Made by a program: the position numbers and the translations under genes. Below the pieces are notes generated by a model. The model worked only from the letters and a program-made list of their open reading frames with translations. It was not told the DNA's origin and did not search any database. A stretch of 64,000 nucleotides of DNA from assembly GCA_947503525.1 (NCBI GenBank), contig CANNEA010000002.1:434001-498000 (forward strand), in the 5' to 3' direction. Each line of letters starts with the position of its first letter. Position 1 is the stretch's first letter. Positions 18,231-41,557 of the stretch are shown one piece after another. The stretch is from an uncultured Carboxylicivirga sp. Its GTDB lineage: Bacteria; Bacteroidota; Bacteroidia; Bacteroidales; Marinilabiliaceae.

Positions 18231-19139
18231 TTATAGCACATTTCGGGTGCCAGTAAAATTGTTGCGAAACTCGGAAGGGGTGCATCCTTGTTTCTTTTTA
18301 AAGATGCGATTAAAGTTGGATAGGTTATTAAATCCGCATTCAAAGCAGATTTCAGCAATGCTTTTATTGCTTTCAATTAGCCATCTTGTGGCATAGCCCA
18401 AGCGTATTTCATTTGTAAACTCCACAAAGGACTTACCTGTGCGTTGCTTTATTAGGCGACTAAAAGATATAACCGACATATTTACCAAATCAGCGGCCTC
18501 TTCAAGCATTATTTTTTTGCCGTAGTTGTCTTTTATATAGTGGTACACTTTTTCAATGCGTTCACTGTTCTGAAAATCATTCTGACGTTGAAACGACATG
18601 TTAGTTAATAGTTCCTGATCTCGTGAAATGGCCAGATCATATAATAAGGACTGGAATTGTAAGAAACTATCATAGCCTCTTTTTTGACTCAAGGCAAGCA
18701 GTTTGGGTTCCACTTGTTTAATGGTTTCTTCCGAAAAGCGAATTCCTCTTGCAGCATTCTGTAGTAGCTCTTTAATTGGATGCAATATATTTCGGTTTAA
18801 AATAGCATCACTCCAAAGATCACGTGGGAATTGAATGGTGATTTCATGTAGAAGCTCCTTACCTTCATTTTGATCATTTTCCCAACCATGATAGAGATTG
18901 GGGCCAACCATAACCAACTCTCTGTGTGAGATATTATCAATGTGATCACCGACAATGCGTTTGGCGCCTGAGGCATTGCAGATATAATTAATCTCAAATT
19001 CCGGATGGAAGTGTATGGGAAAGGTAAATAGTGGTCTTTCTCTGTCAAATATTAGAAAACAATCATTCTCCTTTAGTGGTGTTATCTCTCTGTGAATATG
19101 TCCATTCATCCCTATTAAATTTGTTTCAAATATAGCCAT
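18231..19139 (-). CDS. AraC-family transcriptional regulator, probable mannan PUL regulator
   Basis: A 302-residue regulator. The N-terminal part (about 15-95) is a cupin-like sensor domain (PIHFHPEFEINYICNASGAKRIVGDHI). The C-terminal part (about 200-298) is a double helix-turn-helix AraC domain with NYGKKIMLEEAADLVNMSVISFSRLIK and IAEICFECGFNNLSNFNRIFKKKQGCTPSEFR. It is transcribed away from susC, with a 347-bp shared upstream region, which is a common place for the PUL regulator. AraC proteins of this type sense small sugars in the cytoplasm. Control of the mannan locus is an inference from position; most PULs use hybrid two-component or anti-sigma regulators, so this is slightly unusual. 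Confidence 0.88.
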   Translation of the reverse strand: MAIFETNLIGMNGHIHREITPLKENDCFLIFDRERPLFTFPIHFHPEFEINYICNASGAKRIVGDHIDNISHRELVMVGPNLYHGWENDQNEGKELLHEITIQFPRDLWSDAILNRNILHPIKELLQNAARGIRFSEETIKQVEPKLLALSQKRGYDSFLQFQSLLYDLAISRDQELLTNMSFQRQNDFQNSERIEKVYHYIKDNYGKKIMLEEAADLVNMSVISFSRLIKQRTGKSFVEFTNEIRLGYATRWLIESNKSIAEICFECGFNNLSNFNRIFKKKQGCTPSEFRNNFTGTRNVL

Positions 19140-22567: not shown

Positions 22568-24226
22568 ATGAAGAAGTTATTATATATAGCAATAGTAATG
22601 GTTACAGGTCTCTTCTCGGCATGCTCCGATTTTCTAGAAGTAGATCCTATTGCCAAAGAGACGGAAGAGAATTTCTTTCAAACACCTGATAATGCCATAT
22701 TGGCCATCAATGGTATTTATGATGTTATTGGGCAATCAGAAGGCGCTGGTCCTGACGGTCAGTGGCTGACACATAATTATGAATTTTTCTTTGGGGACTT
22801 ATTATCTGATGACGCTGAAAAAGGGTCGAAAGAAGCTGACTTAACTCCTATACAGGAAATGGTGGAGTGGCGTGCCGGAACGGCCAACAGTGTTTTGGAG
22901 TCGGTTTGGATCAAGTGTTTCGATGGCATTTACAGAGCAAATATTGCTTTAAAGTGGTTGCCTGACAGTCAATTGGATGATGAGCTTAAGACTCGTTTAC
23001 AAGGGGAGGCCTACTTTTTAAAGGGCTACTTCTATTTCTATCTGGTTCGTGTATTTGGCGGTGTGCCTTTATTTGATGCTCCTGTTGGTCAGGAAGAGTT
23101 TGGTCAGATTCCAAGAGCGTCATACCATGAAACCTTTGAGTATGCGGCCAGTCAGTTTAAAATGGCTATTGAACGTTTACCTCTGAAATCGGAGTACGCA
23201 GGCACTGATATGGGAAGAGCAACTAAGGGAGCTGCCCAGGGATATCTGGCGCGTTTGCTTCAATATCAACTTAGTATGGATAAGGAAAGTTCAGTAAGTC
23301 ATCAGGATATTCAAACCTTAACATCTGCAATTATTGGATCAGGCCAGTATTCCTTATTATCTAATTATGCACAGCTTTTCGAATTTGCTGGTGAAAATGG
23401 AAGTGAATCTATTTTTGAATTACAGATGCTTGAAGGGAATACTGGAAATGCACCTCAAAAAACGGGTACAAACATCAACCAATTTACCGGCAACAGAGGT
23501 GATTGGGGTTGGGGATTTCAAAATCCAACGGAAGATTTATACAATGCCTTTGAAAATCAGGATCCCCGTCTAAGCTGCTCGGTATATGGTGCTAATTATA
23601 ATGGAGGGGTGGTGCAAGGCATGGCGTATACCTATAAGCTGGATGAGCAAATGACACCATATTTTAATCGTAAAACAGCCTTGGCTGATTCTGAAAAGCC
23701 TTCGATTACAAAAAGTAGTGATTACAATATTCGTAAGATGCGCTATGCTGAAATCTTATTTATGCATGCTGAAGTAGCCATTGAACTAGGTCAATATGGT
23801 GAAGCCGAAGATATCATTGAAACCATTCGCGACAGAGCCAGAACAAGTACATTGGCCAGAGGCTACAACGAAGGTGACTTAAGTTATCCATCAACCGGAT
23901 GGGGCGGTAACTTACCATACATTGGTTTGCCAAATGACAGAGATGGAGCCATGGATATTTTACTACAGGAAAAACGCGTGGAGATGGCCAACGAGGGATT
24001 GCGGTATTGGGACTTGGTTCGTCATGGTAAATACCTGGATGTATTGGATAAAAAGGTAGCCACCTTTAAAAATAATGATGGTAACCTCAGATACGAGAAT
24101 GTGCCACTTCGTGCTAATTGTGAGGCAAAAACAATTGATGGCAAAGGCAATGTAGAAGTTCCTTTAATGCCAATTCCTGAATCAGAAGTAAACGACTGGG
24201 GATTAACTCAAAACAAAGGTTATTAA
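22568..24226 (+). CDS. susD: SusD/RagB-family nutrient-binding outer-membrane lipoprotein
   Basis: A 552-residue lipoprotein (signal ending LFSAC, then SDFLEVDP, the usual SusD start). TPR-like helices follow, with the segment LQGEAYFLKGYFYFYLVRVFGGVPLFD and the C-terminal EKRVEMANEGLRYWDLVRHG characteristic of RagB/SusD proteins. It caps the SusC barrel from outside the cell and helps capture oligosaccharide. It is 12 bp downstream of susC, and the pair surely forms one complex. Specificity cannot be read from sequence alone; context points to mannan. Confidence 0.95.
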   Translation: MKKLLYIAIVMVTGLFSACSDFLEVDPIAKETEENFFQTPDNAILAINGIYDVIGQSEGAGPDGQWLTHNYEFFFGDLLSDDAEKGSKEADLTPIQEMVEWRAGTANSVLESVWIKCFDGIYRANIALKWLPDSQLDDELKTRLQGEAYFLKGYFYFYLVRVFGGVPLFDAPVGQEEFGQIPRASYHETFEYAASQFKMAIERLPLKSEYAGTDMGRATKGAAQGYLARLLQYQLSMDKESSVSHQDIQTLTSAIIGSGQYSLLSNYAQLFEFAGENGSESIFELQMLEGNTGNAPQKTGTNINQFTGNRGDWGWGFQNPTEDLYNAFENQDPRLSCSVYGANYNGGVVQGMAYTYKLDEQMTPYFNRKTALADSEKPSITKSSDYNIRKMRYAEILFMHAEVAIELGQYGEAEDIIETIRDRARTSTLARGYNEGDLSYPSTGWGGNLPYIGLPNDRDGAMDILLQEKRVEMANEGLRYWDLVRHGKYLDVLDKKVATFKNNDGNLRYENVPLRANCEAKTIDGKGNVEVPLMPIPESEVNDWGLTQNKGY

Positions 24227-26024: not shown

Positions 26025-27959
26025 ATGCAGCGCGTTATAGGAATACTAGTATTAGCAATTATTTTACTGGCATGTAAAAAAGAGGAGGCCAAGAGTAATC
26101 TGAAGGAACTAAAAAGTTTTTCAGTAGTGGAGTTAGACATTGATTTTACATTAGGAACAAATAATAACTGGACCGCAAAAGCCGGCACTGAAGCTGATTT
26201 AAGTTCCTTAACTGCCGAATTTGAAATTTCTCCAAATGCCTATTGTTTTATTGGACCTACCCAACAAACATCAGGCTATACAAAAAATGATTTTAGCTCC
26301 CCATTAAGCTTTACCATTAGGGCTGAAGATGGGAGTAAAGCAGAGTATCTGGTTAGTATCTATAAAGAAGCTCAAATAACATCCTTTTCAATTGAGGAAT
26401 TAGCAGATATAAGCTTTACCATAGAAAATGAAAAAATTGAGGCTTCTGTTTTAAATGGAACAGACCTAAGTCAACTAACCGCCAAATTTGAGGTGACTGA
26501 AAATGCCCGGGTTTTTATTGGGGCAACTGAGCAAGAGTCGGGGCTAACAAAAAACGACTTCTCATCCCCATTAACCTATAGCTTAAAAGAACAGGATGGA
26601 GCAGAAAAACATTATACAGTTTCCATTACTGAACTTGAGAATCAAGCCCCAATAGCCAATGCCGGAGGCGATAAAAACATTTACATCAATAAAAGCGAAA
26701 CTCATGCAGAAGTTCAACTGGATGGGAGTCTGTCTTCTGATGCAGAAGGTCCTATTGGTTCTTATGAATGGAGAATGGGCCAAACTGTTATTGGAAATGA
26801 AGCCTTGTTGAAGTACAACTTCCCTTTAGGCGCACATGATGTGAGCTTAAGCGTGACAGATCAGGCAGGAGCCACTGACAGTGATGCAATAAAGGTGACT
26901 ATTCAGTTGGCCGGGGAATATACACCCATTGATGACGATGCAGCACAAATCACAAAGGATTTACTTAAAAATATTGCTCAAGTGGCCATAAGTGATAAGG
27001 TCATATTCGGACAAGAGTTTCCATTATCATTTAAGTTAAACGGATTGCGAAATGATCTAAGTACCTCTGATTGTAAAGAAGTAACAGGAGATCATCCGGG
27101 TGTTTTTGGTATCGACCCTCATTATATGCTTTACAAAACGGATGAGCAAAAACAGTTGCACATCAATGAGGCACTTTGGGCCTACCAAAATGGTGCAATA
27201 GTCACTTTCGATTTTCACCAGCAAAGTAAGAGCGACCATAAAATATATATGAATGACATTACCACGGCCACAGACAAAAGCCTGATGTATGATGTGGTTA
27301 ATGATATGAATGGAGCGCGTGAATGGATGCATGCTGAATTGGATTTAATTTTAGGATTTATCAATGATGACCTGCAGTTTCCAGTTGTTTTTCGCCTGTT
27401 TCATGAAATGGATGGCGATTGGTTCTGGTGGGGAAGTTCGGCGACTAATCATAGTGCCCAGTTGTACATCGATTTTTATCGATATGCCGTGGATTATATA
27501 AAAGCCCGAAGCAATTTGGTAGTGTTTGCCTGGTCGCCTAATTCACAAATACAAACAACTTACTATCCTGGAGATAACTATGTGGATGTGGTGGGTTTTG
27601 ATATTTATGAACCCAATACCAAGGATTTGAAAACAAAACTGATTGAGCTATCCACCTTTGCACTGCAACATAACAAAGTTGCAGCATTAACAGAGACCGG
27701 TTATCGAAATAACTATATCAATACTGCTCCGGGTTTTTGGAATGATGTGATTTTGGAAGCCATCAAACAGGGAGGGTCCGATATTCGCATTGCTTGGGTA
27801 TTGTCATGGTTCAATGCCCCCTGGCACTCTGAGCAAAGTCAGTTATTTATTCCGGATGCCAATAGTCCTCAAAATGCAAAGGACAAATTCAAAGCTTTTA
27901 AAGAGGACGCCAGTACCCTGTTTTTAGATGAAGTAAAGGGCTTAAACATATACGAATAG
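26025..27959 (+). CDS. GH26 endo-beta-1,4-mannanase with two repeat domains and a PKD domain, lipoprotein
   Basis: A 644-residue lipoprotein (ILLACKKEE). Two homologous beta-sandwich modules occupy about residues 25-113 and 117-203, each with the xTKNDFSSPLxxxxxxxDGxxxxYxVSI pattern (residues 86-112 and 175-201), like DUF5018/cadherin-like modules. A PKD-type domain follows (about 207-296; PIANAGGDKNI, SVTDQAGATDSD). The GH26 catalytic domain (about 305-630) has the acid/base E461 in FRLFHEMDGDWFWWG and the nucleophile E557 in AALTETGY. This is probably the surface mannanase that starts polymer breakdown, with the N-terminal modules acting as a stalk that extends the enzyme from the membrane. 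Confidence 0.92.
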   Translation: MQRVIGILVLAIILLACKKEEAKSNLKELKSFSVVELDIDFTLGTNNNWTAKAGTEADLSSLTAEFEISPNAYCFIGPTQQTSGYTKNDFSSPLSFTIRAEDGSKAEYLVSIYKEAQITSFSIEELADISFTIENEKIEASVLNGTDLSQLTAKFEVTENARVFIGATEQESGLTKNDFSSPLTYSLKEQDGAEKHYTVSITELENQAPIANAGGDKNIYINKSETHAEVQLDGSLSSDAEGPIGSYEWRMGQTVIGNEALLKYNFPLGAHDVSLSVTDQAGATDSDAIKVTIQLAGEYTPIDDDAAQITKDLLKNIAQVAISDKVIFGQEFPLSFKLNGLRNDLSTSDCKEVTGDHPGVFGIDPHYMLYKTDEQKQLHINEALWAYQNGAIVTFDFHQQSKSDHKIYMNDITTATDKSLMYDVVNDMNGAREWMHAELDLILGFINDDLQFPVVFRLFHEMDGDWFWWGSSATNHSAQLYIDFYRYAVDYIKARSNLVVFAWSPNSQIQTTYYPGDNYVDVVGFDIYEPNTKDLKTKLIELSTFALQHNKVAALTETGYRNNYINTAPGFWNDVILEAIKQGGSDIRIAWVLSWFNAPWHSEQSQLFIPDANSPQNAKDKFKAFKEDASTLFLDEVKGLNIYE

Positions 27960-28013: not shown

Positions 28014-29111
28014 ATGAAGGAACAATTTTATGTTGTATTGGGACTTGTGCTACTAACTTTTGCCTGTACTACTCCAGGTGATAAAGTAAAACTTAATCCT
28101 ATTCTTGAAGAATTGGCGAATACAAAAGGGAAAGGCATTTTGTTTGGCCACCAGGATGATTTGGCCTATGGTATGGATTGGAGCTATGTGCAAGGTGAAT
28201 CGGATGTGAAGCGTGTGACTGGCGATTATCCTGCTATTTTTGGTTGGGAGCTGGGAGGCATTGAATTAGAGCATACTCATAATTTGGATAGTGTGCCTTT
28301 TAGTGCCATGAAACAATTGGCCATATGGGGACATCAGCAAGGTGGCATCAATACCTTTAGCTGGCATCCCTTTTCACCCATCGACAGTATAAGTTCATGG
28401 AATGGTGATTCAGTAGTTGTTAAACATTTGATTGAAGGGGGAGCATACCATGCTGCTTTTAAAAATCAACTGGATAAAGTGGCTCAGTTTTTCACCGCCT
28501 TAAAAGATGATAGTGGGCAAGCCATTCCTTTTATTTTTCGCCCTTGGCATGAAATGGATGGGGGCTGGTTTTGGTGGGGTAAAAAGGCTTGCACACCAGC
28601 AGAACTAAAACAGCTATTCCACTTCACCATTGATTATTTAAGAAATGAAAAAGGTCTTGATCAAATGCTGGTGGCTTATTCTCCTGATCGTAATTTTGAT
28701 AGCAGAGATGAATATTTGAGCTGGTATCCGGGAGACGATGTTATTGATATTCTGGGTATGGATGATTATTGGGATTTTAAGCAGCCCGAAGGCGAAAAGG
28801 ATGTGATTCGCAAACTGCATATTGTTATTGAAACAGCTAAGGAGAAAGGTATGCCGGCAGCATTAACAGAAACAGGTTGTTCAAATGTAACGGATTCATT
28901 ATGGTTTACTCAGAAGCTGGGAGTGGTACTAAGCGATCCTATTATTAATAAGGAATTGAGCTATGCCATGGTATGGCGAAACGATCCCAGAGTACATTTC
29001 TTTTTCCCCTATCCTGGCCATAAGGCCGAAGCGGATGCCAGGGAGTTTTGCCTGCGTGAAGATATTTTGTTGTTGAATGAATTTAATACCATCAAAGCAT
29101 CAGCTAAATAA
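28014..29111 (+). CDS. GH26 beta-mannanase, lipoprotein
   Basis: A 365-residue protein with lipoprotein signal (LVLLTFAC, C18) and a single GH26 domain. The acid/base is E180 (FIFRPWHEMDGGWFWWG) and the nucleophile is E286 (AALTETGCS). The active-site histidine segment GINTFSWHPFSP is present. It is compact and lacks the extra modules of the neighbouring GH26 enzyme, so it may be the periplasmic member of the pair, acting on imported oligosaccharides. In Bacteroides mannan loci a GH26 next to the GH130 phosphorylase releases mannobiose from chain ends, and this gene holds the same position. Confidence 0.93.
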   Translation: MKEQFYVVLGLVLLTFACTTPGDKVKLNPILEELANTKGKGILFGHQDDLAYGMDWSYVQGESDVKRVTGDYPAIFGWELGGIELEHTHNLDSVPFSAMKQLAIWGHQQGGINTFSWHPFSPIDSISSWNGDSVVVKHLIEGGAYHAAFKNQLDKVAQFFTALKDDSGQAIPFIFRPWHEMDGGWFWWGKKACTPAELKQLFHFTIDYLRNEKGLDQMLVAYSPDRNFDSRDEYLSWYPGDDVIDILGMDDYWDFKQPEGEKDVIRKLHIVIETAKEKGMPAALTETGCSNVTDSLWFTQKLGVVLSDPIINKELSYAMVWRNDPRVHFFFPYPGHKAEADAREFCLREDILLLNEFNTIKASAK

Positions 29112-29169: not shown

Positions 29170-30360
29170 ATGAAGAATGTGTTTGATAAAAGATTGAAAG
29201 AGATAAAAACCAACTATAGAAATCTGATTAAAAAAAGCAATAAAGCTGTATTTAGCAGCAATGGGATATATAATCGTTACAAGCATCCGATACTTACACG
29301 CGACCATATTCCCTTGCATTGGCGCTTTGATTTAAATGAAGATACCAACCCTTACTTAATGGAGCGCATTGGCTTTAATGCTGCCTTTAATTCAGGTGCC
29401 ATCAAACTCAATGGCAAATACCTTTTGGTAGTGCGTGTTGAAGGTAACGATCGAAAATCCTTTTTTGCTGTGGCCGAGAGCCCCAATGGGATTGATAATT
29501 TCAAGTTTTGGAATCGTCCCATTAGCTTACCGCAAAATGAGGAGGTGGATACAAATGTGTACGACATGCGCTTAACACAGCATGATGATGGCTGGATTTA
29601 TGGGGTATTCTGTACTGAGCGAAAAGACCCCGATGCCCCATATGGTGATACTTCAAGCGCAGTGGCTGAAGCCGGAATTGCACGCACAAAAGATTTAATC
29701 AACTGGGAGCGATTACCTGATTTAATTTCAACATCAGGACAGCAACGAAATGTAGTGTTGTTTCCACATTTAATCGAAGGTAAATACGCCTTTTATACCC
29801 GACCACAGGATGGTTTTATCGATACCGGGAAAGGTGGAGGAATAGGTTTTGGCTTGTCTGATACCATTGAAAACCCTGAAGTAAAAGAGGAGCTGATTGT
29901 GGATGCAAAAACCTATCATACCATCTATGAAGTGAAGAATGGCCTGGGACCGGCACCAATAAAAACAGAGCATGGCTGGTTACAATTAGCTCATGGAGTT
30001 AGAAACACAGCCGCGGGTCTTAGGTATACCTTATACATGTTTATGACTGATCTTGAAAAACCTTGGTTAGTAACACATAAGCCACACGGGCATTTTATTG
30101 CTCCATTGTGCGAAGAGCGTGTAGGAGATGTGTCAAATGTGGCCTTCTCAAATGGATGGATCACCGATGACGACGGGAAAGTGTATATTTATTATGCATC
30201 ATCGGATACACGCATGCATGTTGCTACATCAAGCATTGATCAACTGGTGGATTATTGCATCAATTCGCCTCAGGATAAATTGCATTCACATCTTTCGGTT
30301 CAAACAATAAACGAATTAATCGACGACAATCAGGAGTACATGAATCTGCTGGCTGATTAA
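29170..30360 (+). CDS. GH130 4-O-beta-D-mannosyl-D-glucose phosphorylase
   Basis: A 396-residue cytoplasmic protein without signal peptide. It has the five-bladed-propeller motifs of GH130, including the catalytic aspartate D132 in [61 protein letters not shown] and [17 protein letters not shown]. The length and the adjacent cellobiose 2-epimerase gene favour subfamily 1, which cleaves mannosyl-beta-1,4-glucose with phosphate to give alpha-mannose-1-phosphate and glucose. The GH26 - GH130 - epimerase - transporter grouping is the known Bacteroides mannobiose pathway, though the transporter follows the epimerase here. No gene symbol is given because usage differs between species. Confidence 0.92.
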
Positions 30361-30376
30361 TATTAAGATTTTCAGA

Positions 30377-31627
30377 ATGGGAATTAATCAAGGGATAGGT
30401 ATCGAGGGTTTTAAAAAAGAATTAGAAGATGAGCTGTATCGTCTGCTTAACTTTTGGAAAGATGAGGCCATTGATTTAAAGCATGGCGGTTTTATAGGTC
30501 GAATTGATCATTATGGGATTAAAGATTGGAGCGCACCCAAGGGAGCTGTTCAGGTGGCACGTATTCTTTGGACGTTTTCGGCAGCCTATCGCCTGACTCA
30601 GAAAAAGCAGTTTTTAAATTGTGCTGAGCGTGCTTATGCGTATTTGATTCAACACTACTGGGATAAGGCATGTGGAGGATTGATATGGGCAGTGTCGAAT
30701 CAGGGCCGCCCTTTAAGTAAAAGAAAACAAGGCTACGCACAAGGTTTTGGCATTTATGCCTTATCTGAATACTATCGGGTGAGTGATAAGAAGGAAAGTC
30801 TGGATTATGCCATTCAACTCTACAATATTCTTGAAAATAAGTTTCAGGACAAGCAAAATGGAGGGTATATCGAGTCCTTAAATCAGGATTGGACTCCATT
30901 GGATGACATGCGCCTGAGTGATAAGGATGCCAATTTACCAAAGTCGATGAATACCCACCTTCATATTTTGGAGCCCTACAGCAATCTGTTTAGGGTATGG
31001 CAAAATGAGGAATTGAAGAACAGCATTATCAAATTAATTCATGTGTTTAAGGATAGGATTATTGATTCGCATTCGGGGCATTTCAATTTGTTTTTTGAAA
31101 TGGATTGGTCCGTGAAGTCCAACATCGTATCCTATGGGCATGATATAGAAGGTGCCTGGTTATTGCATGAAGCAGCATTACTAACAGAGGATGAAAAGCT
31201 GATTAACTTGGTTCAACAAGATGCACTTCGCTTGGTGGATATTACCCTGAACGAAGGCTTGGCTAAAGATGGTTCCTTATTCTATGAAAAGGAAGGAGAT
31301 CATCTTGATACAGATCGACACTGGTGGCCTCAGGCCGAAGCCATGGTTGGTTTATTCGATGCCTGGGAGATTAGCGGAAAGAGTTCTTATCTGGAGCGTT
31401 TGGATGCCATCTGGACATTTATTAATGAGCACCTGCTAGATGTAGAAAAGGGAGAATGGTACTGGAGTGTGGATAGCCATGGTAAAGCGAATGAAGAAGG
31501 TGATAAGGTGGGTTTTTGGAAATGTCCTTATCACAATAGCAGGGCTATAATGGAGTTACTGGAACGGTTGGAGAAATTGGAGAAATCTACTAAGGCAGAT
31601 ATTGCTTCTGACAATGCAAGTATCTAA
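30377..31627 (+). CDS. ce: Cellobiose 2-epimerase (AGE superfamily)
   Basis: A 416-residue cytoplasmic (alpha/alpha)6-barrel enzyme. Key histidines are in place: MNTHLHILEP (H194/H196), SYGHDIEGAWLLHEA (H255), DTDRHWWPQAEA (H315) and KCPYHNSRA (H386). These match the general acid/base residues of characterised cellobiose 2-epimerases. In the mannan pathway it converts mannobiose to mannosyl-glucose, the substrate of the GH130 enzyme encoded 16 bp upstream. A generic annotation as N-acylglucosamine 2-epimerase would be less accurate. Confidence 0.92.
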   Translation: MGINQGIGIEGFKKELEDELYRLLNFWKDEAIDLKHGGFIGRIDHYGIKDWSAPKGAVQVARILWTFSAAYRLTQKKQFLNCAERAYAYLIQHYWDKACGGLIWAVSNQGRPLSKRKQGYAQGFGIYALSEYYRVSDKKESLDYAIQLYNILENKFQDKQNGGYIESLNQDWTPLDDMRLSDKDANLPKSMNTHLHILEPYSNLFRVWQNEELKNSIIKLIHVFKDRIIDSHSGHFNLFFEMDWSVKSNIVSYGHDIEGAWLLHEAALLTEDEKLINLVQQDALRLVDITLNEGLAKDGSLFYEKEGDHLDTDRHWWPQAEAMVGLFDAWEISGKSSYLERLDAIWTFINEHLLDVEKGEWYWSVDSHGKANEEGDKVGFWKCPYHNSRAIMELLERLEKLEKSTKADIASDNASI

Positions 31628-31725: not shown

Positions 31726-33102
31726 ATGAGTGATAAAATTAAATTAAAGGAAAAAATTGGATACGGATTCGGTGATTTTGCCTCATCCATGTTTTGGAAA
31801 ATCTTCGCCATGTATCTTACCTTCTTTTATACGGATGTGGTGGAGCTATCACCCGAGTCGGTGGCCATGATGTTTATTATGGTGAGACTATGGGATGGGC
31901 TTAACGATCCCTTGATGGGCATTATAGCAGATAGAACAAAGACGAAAATGGGTAAGTTCAGGCCCTATCTCTTATGGATCGCTATTCCATTTGGCCTGAT
32001 TGGGATTCTAACCTTTTCGGTACCTGATTTTGGACCCTCTGGAAAACTCATCTATGCCTATGTAAGCTATACCTTGATGATGATGGTGTACACGGCAGTT
32101 AACGTGCCATACGGTTCATTAATGGCGGTAATGACGGATAGCCCTAAGGAACGCACATCACTGGCCTCATTCCGATTTATTGGCGCTTATTCAGGAGGAA
32201 TTGCCATGACGGCTTCTGCCCCGTACATACTGGAATTCTTTAAGAATGCCGGTGCAACAGAAGCTAAAAGCTATACCTTCATGGTGGCCATCTATGCTGC
32301 CGTAGCAGCTTTCTTTTTTATAATGACCTATCTCTGGACTAAAGAGCGCGTCAAGGCATTGAAAGAGTCAAGTTCAATAAGTAGTGATCTAAAGGACTTA
32401 CTAAAGAATGCTCAATGGTTCATCATGCTTGGCGCCGGAATTTTAATGTTGGTATTCCTTACTTTTCGTGAGTCGAGTATCATGTATTATTTTAAGTATT
32501 TTGTGCAGGATCAGAATCTGGCCTTTTTTGGCGAAGTCACTTGGGGGAAGTTATCAGGTGCATATATGACCATCTGGCTGGTAGCAAATATGCTTGGTGT
32601 ATTGTTGGCAATTCCCGTATCCAATGTTATTGGTAAGAAAGGCACATTTATATTGGCCATGTTCAGTTCTGCCATACTTAGTGTTTTGCTCTATTGGCTG
32701 AACCCTCAAGAAGTTTATCTCATTTTTATACTCAACTTTATTAATGGGATTAGTGCCGGAATCGTGTTACCGCTTGTGTGGTCTATGTACGCTGATATTG
32801 CCGATTATTCGGAGTGGAAGACCGGAAGAAGGGCTACCGGATTACTTTTCTCATCTTCTTCCATGTCCCAAAAATTGGGTTTAATGGCAGGAGGTGTTCT
32901 TCCACTGTATATCCTGTCATCATATGGATTTGAAGCTAACGCTGAGCAAACAGATCAATCGCTGGAAGGGATACGCTTAATGATAAGTATCTATCCGGGA
33001 ATTACTGCTGCACTTTCAGGTGCCATGCTGATAGCCTATAAATTAAATGATCGATTTATGGATAAGGTGACAACGGAGCTAAATACAAAAAGAAGGACCT
33101 AA
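31726..33102 (+). CDS. GPH-family sugar:cation symporter (MFS)
   Basis: A 458-residue inner-membrane protein with about 12 membrane helices. It begins with the GPH signature KEKIGYGFGDFASSMFWKIFAMYLTFFYTDV, then has VRLWDGLNDPLMGIIADRTKTKMGKFRPYLLW and the second-half motif YADIADYSEWKTGRRATGLLFS. It most likely carries mannobiose or mannosyl-glucose into the cytoplasm, joining the periplasmic mannanases to the cytoplasmic epimerase and phosphorylase. The stop codon abuts the next start with no gap. Confidence 0.92.
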   Translation: MSDKIKLKEKIGYGFGDFASSMFWKIFAMYLTFFYTDVVELSPESVAMMFIMVRLWDGLNDPLMGIIADRTKTKMGKFRPYLLWIAIPFGLIGILTFSVPDFGPSGKLIYAYVSYTLMMMVYTAVNVPYGSLMAVMTDSPKERTSLASFRFIGAYSGGIAMTASAPYILEFFKNAGATEAKSYTFMVAIYAAVAAFFFIMTYLWTKERVKALKESSSISSDLKDLLKNAQWFIMLGAGILMLVFLTFRESSIMYYFKYFVQDQNLAFFGEVTWGKLSGAYMTIWLVANMLGVLLAIPVSNVIGKKGTFILAMFSSAILSVLLYWLNPQEVYLIFILNFINGISAGIVLPLVWSMYADIADYSEWKTGRRATGLLFSSSSMSQKLGLMAGGVLPLYILSSYGFEANAEQTDQSLEGIRLMISIYPGITAALSGAMLIAYKLNDRFMDKVTTELNTKRRT

Positions 33103-34608
33103 ATGGCTTTGAAAGTTATACAAATGAGACTAGTTGTAATGATTCTGTTTGTCAGCATCTCTTATTTTACCAATGCGCAAACAGGCTTTGTAAAGGGAGT
33201 TGTTTTTGTTGATGCGAATGGAAATGGGGTTTATGATCCTGGTGAGCAAACTCTTGAAAATGTGCTGGTATCAAATCAGAAAGATATAGTTGAAACGGAT
33301 AAAAATGGGAGGTATAAACTTCCTTATTTAAAAAATAAGCTGGTGTATGTTATAAAACCACAGGATTTCCACTTTCCAATAGATGAATATGGTTTACCGC
33401 AGTTTTATATTGAGCAGGATACTGGTTCTGATTATGACTTTGCCCTGATTAATAAAATGGATAAGAAAATCACAAAAGCCATAATAATTGGTGATCCTCA
33501 AATGGCAGATGATGATCGGCTTGATTACTACAGAGATGGTGTAGTCAAGGATATGATGAGGCATGAGGCCGATTTTTATCTTACTTTAGGGGATATAGCG
33601 GATGATAATCTGGAGGTTTATCAGCGTGAAAAAATGATAATGTCTGCCTTAAATATGCCGGGATATCATGTACCGGGTAATCATGATTTATCCTATAAAA
33701 GTACAGATATTAAGGAAAGGCATAAGGAATTTTCAAGGACTTATGGGCCCGATTATTATTCCTTTAATTATGGGCAAACGCATTTTATTATTCTTAATAA
33801 TATTAGCTACGAAGGTTGGAATACTACAGCAAATACAAAAGGGAGCTACTTTGGAGGCTTGGATGTGGAACAAGTGGAATGGCTAAAAACAGACTTGTCA
33901 TATGTGCCCGATAGTCATTTAATTGTAGTTAATACGCATATTCCTTTTCGTGAAGAGTATCATGATGTTGATGGCATTAAAAAGCTCAATACCTTATTAA
34001 ATGGGCGGCAGAATCTCCTGGCTTTAAGCGGTCACTTACATGCTGTTCAAACTTATTTTAACGATAGTACAACTTACTGGACTGGAAAAGCAAAATATGA
34101 ATCAGTGGTTTGTGGGGCGACATGTGGTAGTTGGTGGACTGGTCCAAATGATGAAGAGGGGATTCCTCTTGCAACATGCACCGATGGTTCTCCTAAAGGT
34201 TATTTTTTAATCGAATTTGAAGGAGCGGATTACAATTATAAGTTCATTCCATTAAATCAAAAGGATGAATTTCAAATCCGTTTAACCTTGACAGAAGATT
34301 CATTGGCTCAAAAAGTACTGGTGGCCAATTGGTTTATAGGTAAACCTCACGAACAAGTAAGCCTACGGATTGATAATGGAGAGTTCTTTAAGATGATAAA
34401 TTATACGGGCAAAGATCCCTTTATGCAGTCAAGCATTCATCAGCGGATCAATAAAGATGGATGGACTCCGGGTGTGGCGGAGTGCAAACACTTATGGAAG
34501 ACCTTTCTACCTGAATCACTGGAGTGTGGTGTGCATCGTATTGAAGTGAAGGCCATAAGCGAAGATCAGAAAGAATTTACCGCTTTTAAAATCATTGAAC
34601 AAAAATGA
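33103..34608 (+). CDS. Exported calcineurin-like metallophosphoesterase
   Basis: A 501-residue protein with a signal peptide ending near FTNAQ. An N-terminal beta-sandwich (about 28-90; FVKGVVFVDANGNGVYDPGEQTLENVLVSN) precedes the phosphoesterase core. The metal motifs are IIGDPQ (129-133), LTLGDIADDN (161-169), PGNHD (191-195), VNTHIP (276-281) and SGHLHA (309-314). A C-terminal beta domain follows. The first motif has Gln where many family members have His, as in other DPQ-type members. It removes phosphate from an unknown ester. It has no gap to the transporter gene and shares four bases with the sulfatase gene, so it is part of the mannan locus. It may act on phosphorylated glycan. An ATG at 33124 is an alternative start. 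Confidence 0.85.
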   Translation: MALKVIQMRLVVMILFVSISYFTNAQTGFVKGVVFVDANGNGVYDPGEQTLENVLVSNQKDIVETDKNGRYKLPYLKNKLVYVIKPQDFHFPIDEYGLPQFYIEQDTGSDYDFALINKMDKKITKAIIIGDPQMADDDRLDYYRDGVVKDMMRHEADFYLTLGDIADDNLEVYQREKMIMSALNMPGYHVPGNHDLSYKSTDIKERHKEFSRTYGPDYYSFNYGQTHFIILNNISYEGWNTTANTKGSYFGGLDVEQVEWLKTDLSYVPDSHLIVVNTHIPFREEYHDVDGIKKLNTLLNGRQNLLALSGHLHAVQTYFNDSTTYWTGKAKYESVVCGATCGSWWTGPNDEEGIPLATCTDGSPKGYFLIEFEGADYNYKFIPLNQKDEFQIRLTLTEDSLAQKVLVANWFIGKPHEQVSLRIDNGEFFKMINYTGKDPFMQSSIHQRINKDGWTPGVAECKHLWKTFLPESLECGVHRIEVKAISEDQKEFTAFKIIEQK

Positions 34609-36359
34609 AAGTATCCTTAATTAGCTATGCGATTATCATTCTGGCACTGATCTCAGGATGTGAGTCAGCTGAAGAGCAAAAGCCCAATATTTTACTTATT
34701 ATGACAGATGATCAGGCCTATGGTGATTTGTCAATAAATGGAAATGAATGGCTTGAAACACCCGTTATTGACGATCTGGCTAGGCAAGGAGTATACGCCT
34801 CACACTTTTATGTGAGTCCGGGATGTGCTCCCACGAGGGCAAGTTTGTTGACAGGTCGTTATCATCAGCGTACCGGAGTCAGTGGCGTTACCCGAGGCCG
34901 TGAGGATATGCGAATTAACGAAACCACAATGGCCGATGTTTTTAAATTCTTTGGATATACTACCGGCATATTTGGCAAATGGCATAATGGGGCCCATTAT
35001 CCCTATCATCCCCTGGGTCGGGGCTTCGATCAATTCGTTGGATTTACCTCAGGGCATTGGAGTAATTATTTTAATACCACCATTGAAAAGAATGGACAGC
35101 CATTTAAAACCAATGGCTACCTAACAGATGTGTTAACAAATGAAGCCATTCACTTCATCAATCAGGCCACTGAAAACGGTAAACCCTTCTTTTGTTACTT
35201 GCCTTATCAAAGCCCGCATACACCGCTGCAGGTGCCGGATAAGTACTTTGATAAATATAAAGCAATGGGCTTGGATGATTTTAATGCCAGCATATACGGC
35301 ATGTGCGAAAATATTGATGATAATGTTGGGCGTGTGCTTAGTTCGCTGGATGAACTGGGCATTCGTGAAAATACCATTGTTATATTTTTATCAGATAACG
35401 GGCCTTTAAACTTCAGATACAACTGCGACTTAAAAGGTAGAAAAGGTTCAGTGGATCAGGGAGGCGTTCGTGTGCCTTTTATTATAGACTGGAAAGGGAA
35501 ATTAAATACTCAAAGCATTGAAAGCCCTTTGGCTCATATCGATATACTACCGACTCTTCTGAATTTGATAGGACAGGACTATCCGTTCGAAAAAACCATA
35601 GATGGTGTAAGTTTTGCAGGACTGTTAAAGTCCAAAAAGGATTTTCCTCAGCGTTATATATTTTCAGAATGGTCGGGTAAAAAGCGGGTGGTGGATGGTC
35701 ACATGCTGATGATTAATAATGAACTCTTTGATGTGGAAAATGATCCGGGGCAATCAAGGGACATCAGCTCTGATTATCCTGAAAAAATGGATGCAATGAA
35801 GACAGCTTACAAGCAGTGGTATGCTGGTTTAGATCTGAAAGAATCAATTAATAAACCCATTCCAATAGGCTATAAAAATTACCCAATTACCGAATTGCCG
35901 GCGCATGAAGCTAATTTATATCCGCCTTATGAGTTCAGAAAGGATAGACGTCATACTGGCATTGCATATCATGCCCTTTACGGCTGGGCGCATGACTGGA
36001 TTGATTTTTGGACCAGTACTGATGCCTATGCCTCTTGGGATATAGAGGTGCATACATCAGGTGCATATCAATTGGAAATACAATATGCTTTGGCGCCTGA
36101 AAATAAGGATGTACATTTGAAAGTAGAGCTTGGTGATCAGATTATAGAATATATCGTAAAAGAAGGCTTTGAGCACAGTGAATTTGCAAACAATGACAGG
36201 GTGAAGCGCGATCAGGAGGCTCCTGAAACGGATTGGAATACGATAAGCATTGGCCAGGTTGAGCTAAATAATGGTGTTAGTGAGTTAAAGGTTTATTCGA
36301 CTAAAATTCCTGGTGATAAATCCATTGAGTTAAAATCGATAATTGTGAATAAATTATAG
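34605..36359 (+). CDS. Sulfatase (type I, cysteine), lipoprotein
   Basis: A 584-residue formylglycine-dependent sulfatase with lipoprotein signal (IILALISGC). The activation motif is C74-A-P-T-R in SPGCAPTRASLLTGRY. Calcium-site and active-site motifs are ILLIMTDDQAYGDL, FGKWHNG and IVIFLSDNGP. After the core (to about 425) there is an extra C-terminal beta-rich domain of about 150 residues (WDIEVHTSGAYQLEIQYALAP, NNGVSELKVYSTKIPG) that looks carbohydrate-binding. Its start overlaps the phosphoesterase stop (ATGA). Its place in a mannan locus suggests a substrate with sulfate groups, but the exact sulfate ester cannot be read from the sequence. An anaerobic maturase (anSME) would be needed elsewhere in the genome. 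Confidence 0.92.
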   Translation: MKVSLISYAIIILALISGCESAEEQKPNILLIMTDDQAYGDLSINGNEWLETPVIDDLARQGVYASHFYVSPGCAPTRASLLTGRYHQRTGVSGVTRGREDMRINETTMADVFKFFGYTTGIFGKWHNGAHYPYHPLGRGFDQFVGFTSGHWSNYFNTTIEKNGQPFKTNGYLTDVLTNEAIHFINQATENGKPFFCYLPYQSPHTPLQVPDKYFDKYKAMGLDDFNASIYGMCENIDDNVGRVLSSLDELGIRENTIVIFLSDNGPLNFRYNCDLKGRKGSVDQGGVRVPFIIDWKGKLNTQSIESPLAHIDILPTLLNLIGQDYPFEKTIDGVSFAGLLKSKKDFPQRYIFSEWSGKKRVVDGHMLMINNELFDVENDPGQSRDISSDYPEKMDAMKTAYKQWYAGLDLKESINKPIPIGYKNYPITELPAHEANLYPPYEFRKDRRHTGIAYHALYGWAHDWIDFWTSTDAYASWDIEVHTSGAYQLEIQYALAPENKDVHLKVELGDQIIEYIVKEGFEHSEFANNDRVKRDQEAPETDWNTISIGQVELNNGVSELKVYSTKIPGDKSIELKSIIVNKL

Positions 36360-36367
36360 TTTAAAGA

Positions 36368-37600
36368 ATGATCAATAAAACAACTTTAGTCGGAAGTATA
36401 ATATTAAGTGTTATTATCAGCGCGTGTGGGTCATCAATTATTAAAAATGATCAATACGCTGAAAGCATGAACACTTCCATTGCTTTTTTTGATCAGGCTT
36501 TTGATGCAGAGAAAGGCGTATATTTTTCAGAGGTGGACTATGACGGAAAGGTCACGTCTTCAAATATTCACACAGTGGCCTTAAGCCGCATGATTTATGG
36601 CTTATCGTATGCTTCGCAATGGAATCCTGAATGCCTGCGTACAGCCAAAGCATGTATTGATTATCAACTAAAGTACATGACAGGAGTAGATTCGACGGGT
36701 CTCTATTTTATACCAGAAGAGGGAGGTGATCAATTGGCTAAGCTAGATCGGATGGATATATGGCAACAAGCTTATGGCCTGTGTGGACTTAGTGAATACT
36801 ATCGACAAACTAAGGACTCAAGCTTACTTCAATTTATTCACCAAGGGCATCGTGTATTAATTCATCGTTTTCAGGATAAACAAAACGGGGGCTTTTATGC
36901 TGATTATTCTGCTTTAGAGGGCGGTGTGAAAGGCAGTAAAACAATACAAAGTTTGATGTATCCCTTAACTGCCTATATGCTAAATTTATGGGAGGCTGAT
37001 AAAGAGAATAGTCAGCTTTATGAACCCGTTATAAAAGAACATTTAAGTATTGCGTATAATAAGGTTTGGAACGATAGTTTACAATGGGTTAATGTGCAGT
37101 TTGATGATGAATGGAATGCAATTTATGAATCTGATAAAGCCTTTGTTACTGCAGGTCATAACTTTCAGTTTGCAGCACTATTATTGAGGAGTGCTGACCT
37201 TAACTTTATTGATGCCGATCACAGAAAGAACTACCGACATTTAGCATTAAAGATATTGGATAGTACCTTAGCTAAGGATATCTGGAGTGGTCAAGGCTTT
37301 TATGCAGGCTTTAATCCGCTGACAAATGCGGTTAAGGATAGGAACTTGTCCTGGTGGCAGCATTCCGAAGCTATCATTGCCCTATCATTGGCAGGTGAAT
37401 CATATGCCGATGAATTGATTCAGCTTAAATTCTTCTATTTCAATAACTTTGTTGACAAGGTGAATGGAGGTGAAATTGCCAATATTAACTCAGAACTGAA
37501 ACCCCTTATTGAGCCTAAAGGACAAAAGGGAAAATCAGTCTATCATCATATTGAGATGATCCGATTTCTTATCAATAATAATGAAGAAATAACACAATAA
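36368..37600 (+). CDS. AGE-superfamily lipoprotein with altered active site
   Basis: A 410-residue lipoprotein (lipobox VIISAC, C20) whose mature part aligns by eye with the cytoplasmic 2-epimerase of the same locus: DIWQQAYGLCGLSEYYRQTKD, HRFQDKQNGGFYADY, TAGHNFQFAALLL (H264), LSWWQHSEAIIALSL (E334) and VYHHIEMIRFL (H393/H394). The segment matching MNTHLHILEP reads IQSLMYPLTA, so the histidine pair there is missing. An AGE-fold protein outside the cytoplasm is unusual. It could be an epimerase or isomerase with changed chemistry, a lyase or hydrolase on the (alpha/alpha)6 scaffold, or a binding protein. It lies 8 bp after the sulfatase gene. Confidence 0.82.
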   Translation: MINKTTLVGSIILSVIISACGSSIIKNDQYAESMNTSIAFFDQAFDAEKGVYFSEVDYDGKVTSSNIHTVALSRMIYGLSYASQWNPECLRTAKACIDYQLKYMTGVDSTGLYFIPEEGGDQLAKLDRMDIWQQAYGLCGLSEYYRQTKDSSLLQFIHQGHRVLIHRFQDKQNGGFYADYSALEGGVKGSKTIQSLMYPLTAYMLNLWEADKENSQLYEPVIKEHLSIAYNKVWNDSLQWVNVQFDDEWNAIYESDKAFVTAGHNFQFAALLLRSADLNFIDADHRKNYRHLALKILDSTLAKDIWSGQGFYAGFNPLTNAVKDRNLSWWQHSEAIIALSLAGESYADELIQLKFFYFNNFVDKVNGGEIANINSELKPLIEPKGQKGKSVYHHIEMIRFLINNNEEITQ

Positions 37601-37611
37601 ATATATTCGCC

Positions 37612-40230
37612 ATGAGACAAATAAAGACTTCCAGATTATTATTCATCAAGACATTTTTTCTTGGCATAAGCATGCTTTTAGGTTTTGCCTGCCAATCACC
37701 TGATACTGTTAATATGTTACAAAAAGAACTCAATGATAATTGGACTTATCAACAAGTAAATGGAGAATTCACAGGAGAAGCATCGGTTCCCGGAGTAATT
37801 CAAACCGACCTTATGGCCAACAAGCAGATTGAGGCTCCTTTCTACCGAACTAATGAGAAAGAATTGCAATGGATTGATAAGGAGGATTGGGAATATACTT
37901 CCACATTTGAGGTGTCAGCTGAGGAATTTGCTAAAGATAAAATCGTATTGGACTTCAAAGGTCTGGATACCTATGCCACTGTGTTTTTAAATGGCACCCA
38001 GATTTTGGAATCGAATAACATGTTTCGAGAGTACAAGGTAGATATTAAGTCAATGGTAAAATTGGGCCAGAATGACTTGAAGGTGTATTTTCATTCGCCG
38101 ACTCAAAAAGGGCTTGAATTACTAAATGCTTCAGCTTATCCTTATCCAGCCAGTAATGATCAGTCGGAGAATGGTGGAATGGGCGAGAACAAAGTGAGTA
38201 TTTTTACCCGGAAAGCCGGTTACCATTATGGATGGGATTGGGGGCCCCGATTTGTTACTTCTGGCATATGGCGACCAATTGTTTTGAAGGCCTGGAATCA
38301 AGCTCGTATTCAGAATGTATTTATAAAGCAGCCAAGTATTACGGCCGAATTAGCCAAACTGGAGGCTGTCATTAGCATTGAAAGTGAAAAGGATTTTAAA
38401 GGAAAAATAGAAATAAGTGATCAATCCAATGGAGTACTATTTGCTGAGCAGAGTTTTGAGTTGGCAAAAGGAGCTCAGCAGCATACCTTAAGTTTTGAAA
38501 TTGCTAATCCTGAATTGTGGTGGTCAGCTGGATTGGGTGAAGCACACCTTTATAATTTTGAGATTAGACTAAATTCAGGCAATACCTTACTGGCTTCTGA
38601 GTCGGTAACAACGGGCCTTAGAGATATTAAACTGATTAGGGAAAAAGATGAACAGGGTGAGTCATTTCTGTTTGAGATAAATGGGGTTCGGATATTTGCT
38701 AAAGGAGCCAATTACATTCCGAATGATAGTTTCTTACCCAGGGTATCAGATGAAGATTATGAGAAAGTAGTGGCCGATGCAGTTAATGCCAACATGAATA
38801 TGTTACGTATTTGGGGCGGAGGAATATATGAAAATGACATCTTTTATGACTTATGTGATAAGCATGGAATTTTGGTATGGCAGGACTTTATGTTTGCTTG
38901 TTCAATGTACCCAGGTGATGATGCTTTTTTAGCGAATGTAAAGGAAGAAGCCATTGATAATGTCATACGTTTACGAAATCATCCGAGTATTGCCTTGTGG
39001 TGTGGAAACAATGAAATCAATACGGCCTGGAATCATTACTCAGAAGGAGGATGGGGCTGGAAACAGCGTTATACAAAAGATCAACAAGAAGAGATACAAA
39101 AAGCCTACCTGGATTTATTTCATGGTGTGCTACCTGAAGTGGTAGAGCAACATGCCAATGGAACGGATTATTGGCCATCATCGCCACAGGCCGGGTACGA
39201 ACCGCAAGATCATACCAATTATGAGGCTACATCGGGCGATATGCATTATTGGGGAGTTTGGCATGGCTTACATCCATTCGAAGATTTTGATAAGTATAAA
39301 GCGCGCTTTATGAGTGAGTATGGATTTCAATCCTTCCCTGACTTTGAAACGGTTAAAACCTACGCATTACCTGAAGATTATGATATAGAATCAGACGTGA
39401 TGGCTGCTCACCAAAGAAGTGGTATTGGCAACTTACGTATTAAAGAATATATGAGCTGGGATTACAATGTACCAAAAGACTTTGAGCAGTTTTTGTACAT
39501 GAGTCAGGTACTACAAGCCAGGGGAATTAAAGCAGCCATTGAGGCCCACCGCAGAGCCATGCCATATTGTATGGGTACTTTATATTGGCAATTAAACGAC
39601 TGCTGGCCTGTTGCCAGTTGGAGTAGTACCGATTATTATCATAAATGGAAAGCCTTGCATTATGCTGTTAAGCGTTCGTTCGATACCACTATTTTAAGTG
39701 CTTTTGCTGAAGGCGATAAATTGAATATTTATGGCATTACCGATGAGCTTGAAGGTAGAGAAGTAAATTTAAAGCTTAGCCTAATGGATTTTGAAGGAAA
39801 TACTGTTAAGACAGAAGACAAGAAGGTAAAGTTGAATGCCAACACCAGTACCTTATTATATCAAATGAATGCAAAATCATGGTTAAAAGGTGCATCGGTT
39901 AAAGATAAGGTTTTGGTAATGCAGATAGAGAAAGAAGGTAAGCAACTGGCTCAAAACCTGTACTATTTTGCTAAACCTAAGGATCTTGATTTGCCTCAGG
40001 CTTTGGTTGAGGTGAGAAGTCTTGATAAAGATGGCGATCAATATATTGAGTTATTTTCTGATCGTTTGGTTCGTGATTTAAACCTTTCGGTTGAAGATCC
40101 ATCGATAAGCTTTGAAGACAATAGTTTTGACCTTTTACCTAATCATAAAAAACTTATTAAAGTGCTTGGGAACAAAAAGCTTGCTGCAAAAGACATTAAA
40201 ATAATGCACTTGAGCATGATTGCTAAATAA
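37612..40230 (+). CDS. GH2 beta-mannosidase, lipoprotein
   Basis: An 872-residue enzyme with a lipoprotein-type signal (LLGFAC, C27). Domains are the sugar-binding jelly roll (about 35-230; YHYGWDWGPRFVTSGIWRP), the immunoglobulin-like domain (about 230-340), the TIM barrel (about 340-700) and a C-terminal beta part. The acid/base is E468 in LWCGNNEI, and the nucleophile is E569 in RFMSEYGFQSFPD. These are typical of GH2 mannosidases. It removes mannose from the non-reducing end of manno-oligosaccharides in the periplasm. It is 11 bp downstream of the AGE-type lipoprotein gene and clearly part of the same transcript. Confidence 0.94.
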   Translation: MRQIKTSRLLFIKTFFLGISMLLGFACQSPDTVNMLQKELNDNWTYQQVNGEFTGEASVPGVIQTDLMANKQIEAPFYRTNEKELQWIDKEDWEYTSTFEVSAEEFAKDKIVLDFKGLDTYATVFLNGTQILESNNMFREYKVDIKSMVKLGQNDLKVYFHSPTQKGLELLNASAYPYPASNDQSENGGMGENKVSIFTRKAGYHYGWDWGPRFVTSGIWRPIVLKAWNQARIQNVFIKQPSITAELAKLEAVISIESEKDFKGKIEISDQSNGVLFAEQSFELAKGAQQHTLSFEIANPELWWSAGLGEAHLYNFEIRLNSGNTLLASESVTTGLRDIKLIREKDEQGESFLFEINGVRIFAKGANYIPNDSFLPRVSDEDYEKVVADAVNANMNMLRIWGGGIYENDIFYDLCDKHGILVWQDFMFACSMYPGDDAFLANVKEEAIDNVIRLRNHPSIALWCGNNEINTAWNHYSEGGWGWKQRYTKDQQEEIQKAYLDLFHGVLPEVVEQHANGTDYWPSSPQAGYEPQDHTNYEATSGDMHYWGVWHGLHPFEDFDKYKARFMSEYGFQSFPDFETVKTYALPEDYDIESDVMAAHQRSGIGNLRIKEYMSWDYNVPKDFEQFLYMSQVLQARGIKAAIEAHRRAMPYCMGTLYWQLNDCWPVASWSSTDYYHKWKALHYAVKRSFDTTILSAFAEGDKLNIYGITDELEGREVNLKLSLMDFEGNTVKTEDKKVKLNANTSTLLYQMNAKSWLKGASVKDKVLVMQIEKEGKQLAQNLYYFAKPKDLDLPQALVEVRSLDKDGDQYIELFSDRLVRDLNLSVEDPSISFEDNSFDLLPNHKKLIKVLGNKKLAAKDIKIMHLSMIAK

Positions 40231-40255: not shown

Positions 40256-41557
40256 ATGAGAATACTATTTCAATTATTATTTACAATGAGCCTGTTCTTT
40301 AGCGGCTGCAATGCTTCAGAAAATCAGCAAAATAAGTTTGTTCAGGTTGAAAATGGGCACTTTGTATTGGAGGGAAAAGATTATGCATTTATAGGAGCCA
40401 ATTATTGGCAAGGCATGAACCTTGGTGCTCCCCAATCGGGTGATCGGGCAAGATTAATGCGCGAACTCGATCAAATGCAGGCGGCAGGGATAAATAACCT
40501 GCGCATATTGGCCGCCAGTGAAGCGGATGCTGAAATGAAATATTGCATTCACCCGGCCTTACAGTCTGGCCCGGGTGAATATAACAATGACTTATGGTTG
40601 GGCCTTGATTTTCTACTAAGTGAAATGGCCAAGCGTGATATGAAGGCGGTAATGGTAATGGGTAATTTTTGGACCTGGAGTGGTGGATTTCCACAATACG
40701 TGAAATGGGCTGAAGGTTCGGACATTCCTTTTCCGCAAGATGAACCAAACACATGGGATCAATTTCAAAAATATTCTGCAAACTTCTACTTGAGCGAGAA
40801 GGCGCAGGAAATGCTAAAAAGCCACATACGAACCCTGATAACCCGTACTAATACGACAAGCGGGATTTCGTATAAAAATGATCCAACTATTATGGCCTGG
40901 CAACTGGCCAATGAACCACGTGGTTTTCATCAGAAAAAGGAATTTGCAAAATGGACCAGGAAGACTTCTGCTTTTATAAAAAGTTTGGATGCCAATCATT
41001 TGGTATCTCTCGGAACTGAGGGCAATACATCGAGTCATCATGCTGGTGTAAATGTTCGGGAAGATAATGATGATCCGAATGTGGACTACCTGACCATGCA
41101 CATCTGGATACAGAACTGGAGTTGGTTTAAGCCCGGCGATAGCCCTGAAACCTACTCAAATGCTCTTAAGAAAGTTGATGCTTATTGGTCGGATCATATT
41201 CAGGCGGCCAAAGAATTAAATAAACCATTGGTTTTTGAGGAGTTTGGAGTAGCACGAGATAGCTTATCGTACCAAGCCTCATCATCAACAAAAGCAAGAG
41301 ATCAGTACTTCGACTATGTTATGAGTAAGGCTTTAAAATCGATTGAACAAGGTGAGAATTTAAGGGGCTTGAATTTTTGGAGTTATTCAGGAGAAGGCCG
41401 CCCTCCTCGTCCTGGAGAATTCTGGAAGATAGGTGATACTTTTGTTGGTGATCCACCTCATGAACTTCAAGGCTGGTATGGTATTTATGATCAGGACACT
41501 TCAACCTTATCTGTTATTAAACATTACAGTGATCAAATTGTAACTTGCACTAAATAA
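40256..41557 (+). CDS. GH5 (subfamily 7-like) endo-beta-1,4-mannanase, lipoprotein
   Basis: A 433-residue lipoprotein (LFFSGC, C18) with one GH5 domain. Typical mannanase features are GANYWQGMNLG, PGEYNNDLWLGLDFLLSEM, AVMVMGNFWTWSGGFPQYVKWA, the acid/base E220 in MAWQLANEPR, and the nucleophile E329 in LVFEEFG. The pattern fits subfamily 7. It is the third endo-mannanase of the locus and its last gene. Use of two unrelated folds (GH26 and GH5) suggests division of labour between surface and periplasm or between plain and decorated mannans. Confidence 0.93.
   Translation: MRILFQLLFTMSLFFSGCNASENQQNKFVQVENGHFVLEGKDYAFIGANYWQGMNLGAPQSGDRARLMRELDQMQAAGINNLRILAASEADAEMKYCIHPALQSGPGEYNNDLWLGLDFLLSEMAKRDMKAVMVMGNFWTWSGGFPQYVKWAEGSDIPFPQDEPNTWDQFQKYSANFYLSEKAQEMLKSHIRTLITRTNTTSGISYKNDPTIMAWQLANEPRGFHQKKEFAKWTRKTSAFIKSLDANHLVSLGTEGNTSSHHAGVNVREDNDDPNVDYLTMHIWIQNWSWFKPGDSPETYSNALKKVDAYWSDHIQAAKELNKPLVFEEFGVARDSLSYQASSSTKARDQYFDYVMSKALKSIEQGENLRGLNFWSYSGEGRPPRPGEFWKIGDTFVGDPPHELQGWYGIYDQDTSTLSVIKHYSDQIVTCTK

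Follow-up and report, generated by a model that had tools for sequence, protein, structure and literature searches.

Exported lipoproteins of the AGE superfamily with an altered active site, from a beta-mannan utilization locus of Carboxylicivirga and related loci

In a 64,000-nucleotide stretch of DNA from an uncultured Carboxylicivirga sp. (hereafter the window), the open reading frame at 36368..37600 encodes a predicted exported lipoprotein of the N-acylglucosamine 2-epimerase (AGE) superfamily that belongs to a rare clade found in Bacteroidota and Pseudomonadota. The hallmarks of this clade are a Glu-to-Gln change, loss of the stacking Trp, two new glutamates (Glu369 and Glu396) and export. 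Its kept histidines, set in an altered active site, hint that sugars are converted outside the cytoplasm by an activity not yet studied. We propose, with a probability of about 0.5, that the protein is an exported epimerase/isomerase acting on reducing sugars derived from beta-mannan that is probably sulfated.

The lipoprotein and its locus

The first-pass annotation had described this open reading frame as an exported AGE-fold lipoprotein; coordinates, lipobox signal and PF07221 match all agree with that description. The N-terminus (MINKTTLVGSIILSVIISAC-GSS) has the pattern of a lipoprotein-type signal, with the lipobox ISAC and Cys20, and PF07221 (GlcNAc_2-epim) matches residues 52–395 (4.9e-15; 56.1 bits against a curated cut-off of 23.4). 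Cellobiose 2-epimerases are the top solved-structure matches by sequence (2.7e-11, residues 26–399). Judged by these profiles, the protein is an AGE-superfamily member, yet outside both named NCBIfam equivalogs that it reaches, scoring 32.7 bits on EpiA (equivalog cut-off 800) and 27.7 bits on AGE (equivalog cut-off 600).

The window locus is a beta-mannan utilization locus (Table 1), mannan being a plant and algal sugar polymer. Within one same-strand gene run, 8 bases separate the stop of the sulfatase gene from the start of the AGE-like gene, and the GH2 gene starts 11 bases past the latter. The cytoplasmic epimerase reported in the first pass from the same locus is indeed there as the CE-type protein, with three genes intervening; it shares 23% identity with the lipoprotein in the alignment. 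Going by family names, the intracellular route from mannobiose epimerisation to phosphorolysis looks complete without the AGE-like lipoprotein. Relatives of the SusC, SusD and surface-binding genes are present in some related loci, and the closest solved relatives of the sulfatase include carrageenan sulfatases. Sulfated mannan is a reasonable target, since the beta-mannan of Codium is described as carrying sulfate at C-2 and, to a smaller degree, at C-6 (PMC7550628).

Table 1. Genes of the mannan locus in the window, with positions counted from its first letter
Feature	Position	Strand	Remarks
AraC-type regulator	18231..19139	-	by reading
SusC-type gene	19487-22555	+	by reading
SusD-type gene	22568-24226	+	by reading
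Surface-binding-type gene	24238-25962	+	by reading
GH26-type protein	26025..27959	+	by reading and similarity to Pfam-tested GH26 in L044
GH26 mannanase	28014..29111	+	lipoprotein by reading; solved matches include CjMan26C, 1.9e-76
GH130 phosphorylase	29170..30360	+	top solved match 4-O-beta-D-mannosyl-D-glucose phosphorylase, 1.2e-172
Cytoplasmic cellobiose/mannobiose 2-epimerase-type protein (CE)	30377..31627	+	EpiA 359 bits, under the 800-bit cut-off
MFS_2 sugar transporter	31726..33102	+	Pfam
Calcineurin-like phosphoesterase	33103..34608	+	Pfam; exported by reading
S1-type sulfatase (PF00884)	34605..36359	+	N-terminal signal by reading
Exported AGE-superfamily lipoprotein	36368..37600	+	410 aa; signal 1-19, lipobox Cys20
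GH2 with mannosidase Ig domains (beta-mannosidase type)	37612..40230	+	lipoprotein by reading
GH5	40256..41557	+	lipoprotein by reading; top solved matches Man5A 1.4e-117, exo-beta-1,4-mannosidase 6.5e-91

Extent, export and placement of the clade

When 17 distinct members were aligned with 29 other AGE-superfamily proteins, the members formed one clade with support of 100/100 and a long stem. Members obtained twice (e.g. L005 and L032) were counted once, and the 29 relatives exclude 12 further CE-type relatives as well as weak or partial matches in G474 and G475. The label CE-type denotes motif and tree position, the window's CE-type protein alone having been scored as such on NCBI EpiA. All eight aligned clade members tested reach E values of 0.1 or lower against PF07221. 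For the Neiella copy in L042, Pfam gave no match at 0.001. Labilibacter marinus and Saccharicrinis aurantiacus are among the carriers.

In the family to which the source genome belongs, a member is present in 8 of 71 genomes, the seven others at 42–58% identity across two alignments. Two degenerate peptide patterns applied to one genome of each of 84,980 species yielded at least 14 confirmed loci, a lower bound because the copy in G277 came from the class search only. With the best four or fewer candidates per genome scored, clade genes were found in at least 2 of 395 genomes drawn from the class (the source genome and G277), at least 1 of 395 from the phylum (the source genome) and at least 4 of 394 from the order that includes Alteromonas KUL49, none of these four being new; misses are possible in these draws where genomes are rich in such genes.

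Export separates the clade from its relatives. A signal is present in 17/17 members, by lipobox pattern or by eye, and in none of the 28 relatives with a visible N-terminus (that of L059 is cut, hence 28 rather than 29). The automatic lipobox pattern matched 11 of the 17; reading by eye added L004, L044, L045, L043 (full N-terminus) and L038 (reading frame lacking an ATG), while L042 has a signal-like N-terminus without the lipobox Cys. For two of these, L038 and L043, the automatic scan had a truncated or wrongly started N-terminus. The most hydrophobic 12-residue stretch reached at most 0.91 in relatives (n=28), against 1.94–3.82 in members (n=15 complete N-termini); one relative, L079, matched the lipobox pattern, yet its hydrophobic value was merely 0.84. 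Among the titles and abstract beginnings of the listed open-licence literature we found no exported AGE-type protein, which does not imply absence from print.

Values of dN/dS of 0.167 (L048 versus L032) and 0.099 (two Neiella copies) indicate purifying selection. The observed features exceed chance, as the motifs recur across the clade and dN/dS is low in two related pairs. For the AGE-like genes of L048 (14310-15560) and L032 (9947-11194), dS is 0.43, and for the nearby sulfatase, GH5 and GH130 genes it is 1.8–2.5; the low value may reflect recent gene exchange at this spot.

Profile comparison by hhalign related the clade to CE-type proteins at 99.5% over 368 columns and to AGE-type proteins at 98.0%. 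The tree placed the clade beside AGE with support of 89/79, and a grouping with CE was unrejected (p-AU 0.166), so that a sister relationship to AGE is not firm; the shared columns number 7 with AGE and 7 with CE. Four other AGE-superfamily proteins (L060–L063), which we guess to be isomerase-type, matched the clade profile at 91.3% over just 159 columns and share both histidines with it, whereas they retain the HMH histidines and the Glu that the clade has replaced. One of them, L061, scores 22.6 bits on the NCBI mannose isomerase model against a cut-off of 600.

No glycoside hydrolase family was reached above its cut-off, either in Pfam or by profile. GH88, the family of unsaturated glucuronyl hydrolases, is another (alpha/alpha)6 fold; its profile (12 members) is related to that of the clade at 2.6%, as opposed to the 99.5% for CE-type proteins, and Pfam GH88 gave 0.012 in one of eight clade members, below the family cut-off. 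Membership of GH88 was therefore rejected. No GH76 member was found in any of the five genomes searched.

Retained and replaced active-site residues

Five positions, R74, H264, W330, E334 and H393, are kept in 17/17 members and 29/29 relatives. All members thus carry the two catalytic histidines, H264 and H393, that are presented as a feature of the AGE superfamily (PMC13363691). The first pass had listed H264, E334 and the pair H393/H394 as retained: H264, E334 and H393 align with CsCE H247, E312 and H377, and H394 lies opposite an Asn. Alignment positions agree with the published numbers for CsCE His188, His247, His377, Tyr114 and Asn184 (PMC5726027), and the residue numbering of nAGE10 was likewise checked.

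Around this kept core, the clade differs from both neighbouring groups in 14 alignment columns at which CE-type and AGE-type proteins agree. The Glu beside the first catalytic histidine (CsCE E250) is Gln (Q267) in 17/17 members and Glu in 29/29 relatives, and the sugar-stacking Trp (CsCE W372) is replaced by G388 in every member (relatives: Trp 25/29, gap 4/29). CsCE Y114 corresponds to W132 throughout the clade (Tyr in 23 relatives, Phe in 6), and Y198, also invariant, takes the place of a His present in 23/29 relatives. Position 369 is Glu in all members and Trp (25) or Tyr (4) in relatives; position 396 is Glu in all members and Arg (25) or another residue (4) in relatives. The 12 further CE-type relatives outside the set of 29 uniformly carry His, Glu and Trp at positions 198, 267 and 388. 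In the window protein, the changed residues are W132, Q194, Y198, Q267, E369, G388 and E396; of these, W132, Q267, E369, G388 and E396 had gone unnoticed in the first pass.

Compared with cellobiose 2-epimerases (CsCE, RmCE, RaCE), the clade shows a full-length profile match and keeps both acid/base histidines, the barrel Arg and the equivalents of Trp308 and Glu312; unlike them, it is exported and has replaced all equivalents of His188, Asn184, Tyr114, Glu250 and Trp372. With AGE proteins (nAGE10; L056, L057, L067) it has in common the absent third histidine and P199, P262 and H332, and it departs from them in export and in the replacement of nAGE10 Glu243 and Trp368 by Gln and Gly, respectively, in all 17 members.

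The histidines of the MNTHLH type are gone, as had been noted from the sequence, and IQSLMYP (193–199) occupies the site of CsCE MNTHLHV. The further suggestion that this loss alone marks a new activity was not supported. The third histidine is absent from 6/29 relatives, five of them AGE-type (L056, L057, L058, L059, L067) and one AGE-like (L068), and from nAGE10, so that the missing histidines are a known state of the superfamily. The three of these that were scored (L056, L057, L067) pass the NCBI AGE cut-off of 600, at 612–624 bits. A structural comparison describes AGEs without the third His as epimerases, with Ile and Ala at the His200 and Asn196 positions in nAGE10; there the Tyr/His/Asn contacts to C2 in RmCE correspond to Phe116/Ile177/Ala173, which makes space for the N-acetyl group (PMC6333288). 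Since N-acylglucosamine 2-epimerases lack the pair too, its loss was rejected as the novelty of the clade.

What stands opposite the missing pair depends on alignment register, although neither register supplies a histidine. Sequence aligners set Y198 opposite CsCE His188 and Q194 opposite Asn184; published structures pair AGE with CE at an offset of two residues (PMC6333288), and the clade lies on AGE without a gap over GSKTIQSLMYP, which puts T201 (T in 16/17, S in 1/17) and M197 (Met in 13/17) at the two contacts. The register bears on whether a C2-sulfated substrate would fit. Under the direct register, larger side chains would surround C2 (Trp for Tyr, Gln for Asn, Tyr for His), a point against any substituent at C2; in the AGE-guided register, the Trp/Met/Thr contacts might leave more room there.

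Ordinary epimerase chemistry is challenged most strongly by the Glu-to-Gln change in 17/17 members, which could abolish it; the corresponding Glu lies 4.4 Å from C2 in SeYihS, according to the comparison cited above (PMC6333288). On account of this change, both a binding role and a new reaction keep some probability. The clade could comprise epimerase-derived, non-catalytic glycan-binding lipoproteins that help to capture mannan fragments, a rather unlikely reading to which, besides Gln267, the lipoprotein signal and the locus context lend support. Invariance of both acid/base histidines, R74 and E334 in 17/17 members, however, exceeds what binding alone would need; SusD- and SGBP-type genes (labels by reading) are already in the locus, and the clade is also found outside visible mannan loci.

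Glu369 and Glu396, invariant in the clade where relatives have Trp or Tyr and mostly Arg, bear on a different possibility, that an (alpha/alpha)6-barrel enzyme has acquired a new glycosidase or lyase reaction using E334 together with E369, E396 or D130, the last conserved in 17/17. The Trp corresponding to G388 stacks on the second sugar in RmCE (PMC6333288), and its loss could open the second-sugar side for such a reaction. We regard this as improbable, given that no glycosidase family was reached (GH88, the barrel family compared, giving the values above) and that GH26, GH5 and GH2 enzymes for beta-mannan are already encoded in the locus.

A working epimerase/isomerase is the most likely reading in view of the kept acid/base pair and the purifying selection on the gene. 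With H264, H393, R74 and E334 kept, ring opening and proton transfer between C1 and C2 would be plausible by analogy with the published CE/AGE mechanism, and the changed residues on the C2 side, together with the lost second-sugar Trp, suggest a substrate other than plain mannobiose.

Genomic partners and proposed function

About half of the clade loci lie in a beta-mannan setting. Eight of 17 are clear beta-mannan loci (the window, L048, L032, L035/L050, L039, L040, L041/L051 and L044) and L037 is a weaker, mannan-like case; mannan genes were not found in the visible DNA of the other eight (L033, L034, L036, L038, L042, L043, L045, L049), where L033, L034, L038 and L045 are short contigs or contig ends. 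In neither Neiella genome (L042, L043) does the AGE-like gene belong to a visible mannan locus; in both, an 815-aa ORF resembling a lipoprotein is nearby. The mannan locus of L048 has a cytoplasmic CE gene that appears to be split in two (G046:C3:1417399-1418564), and another CE is present elsewhere in the genome. In Alteromonas KUL49, the third ORF upstream of the AGE-like gene is a short sulfatase-like one (L044:7532-8317; 262 aa, 41% identity to the window sulfatase), followed by a 344-aa ORF with no match to the window.

Among the three partners tested (sulfatase, GH5 and CE), the sulfatase is the best linked. At a threshold of E 1e-150 or better, fixed before the search, a close sulfatase relative was found in 6/8 carriers and 2/63 other genomes of the family (Fisher 5.2e-6), with the best 19 or fewer candidates per genome scored and misses possible in genomes rich in such genes; at genus level, the sulfatase set and the clade-carrier set are the same 4 of 21 genera. 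For GH5 the counts were 6/8 carriers and 3/63 others (1.5e-5) at a threshold picked after the matches had been seen, and 6/8 versus 17/63 (p 0.012) at the search's own threshold. A cytoplasmic CE occurred in 6/8 carriers and 40/63 others (p 0.41); with no enrichment, a special genomic link between the lipoprotein and the cytoplasmic CE was rejected. All these p-values are optimistic because the genomes are related. At the thresholds applied, a window-type sulfatase and a CE were both missing from carriers G017 and G018. In G051:C35 and G052:C77, sulfatase and CE genes lie a few kilobases apart and the AGE-like lipoprotein was not found; the sulfatase can thus be present in its absence.

The eight loci without nearby mannan genes, among them those of Neiella, Colwellia, Saprospiraceae and G277, would suit a general exported sugar epimerase or isomerase that is not bound to mannan and was recruited into mannan loci in some lineages. 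We find this account doubtful in the face of the close synteny with sulfatase and mannan enzymes in Labilibacter, Saccharicrinis, Marinilabilia and the window, and of the sulfatase-like ORF in Alteromonas KUL49.

As an exported epimerase/isomerase of mannan-derived sugars, the protein, lipid-anchored to judge from its signal, would face the periplasm or the cell surface. Its locus context suggests that its substrates would be mannose or manno-oligosaccharides, attacked at their open-chain reducing end after release by the GH26, GH5, GH2 and sulfatase enzymes encoded alongside it. Sulfated mannose or a sulfated manno-oligosaccharide is the leading candidate substrate, because the sulfatase is the best-linked partner found. 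The narrower proposal of an enzyme dedicated to such sulfated sugars, which together with the neighbouring sulfatase would allow sulfated algal mannan to be processed outside the cytoplasm, appears unlikely.

In a superfamily otherwise seen here solely without signals (0/28 relatives), the clade, with Gln in all 17 members, would be a natural test of the role of the Glu beside the catalytic histidine. Should this branch prove to be exported and its active site remodelled, it would add an extra step to the bacterial breakdown of beta-mannan, probably in sulfated form.
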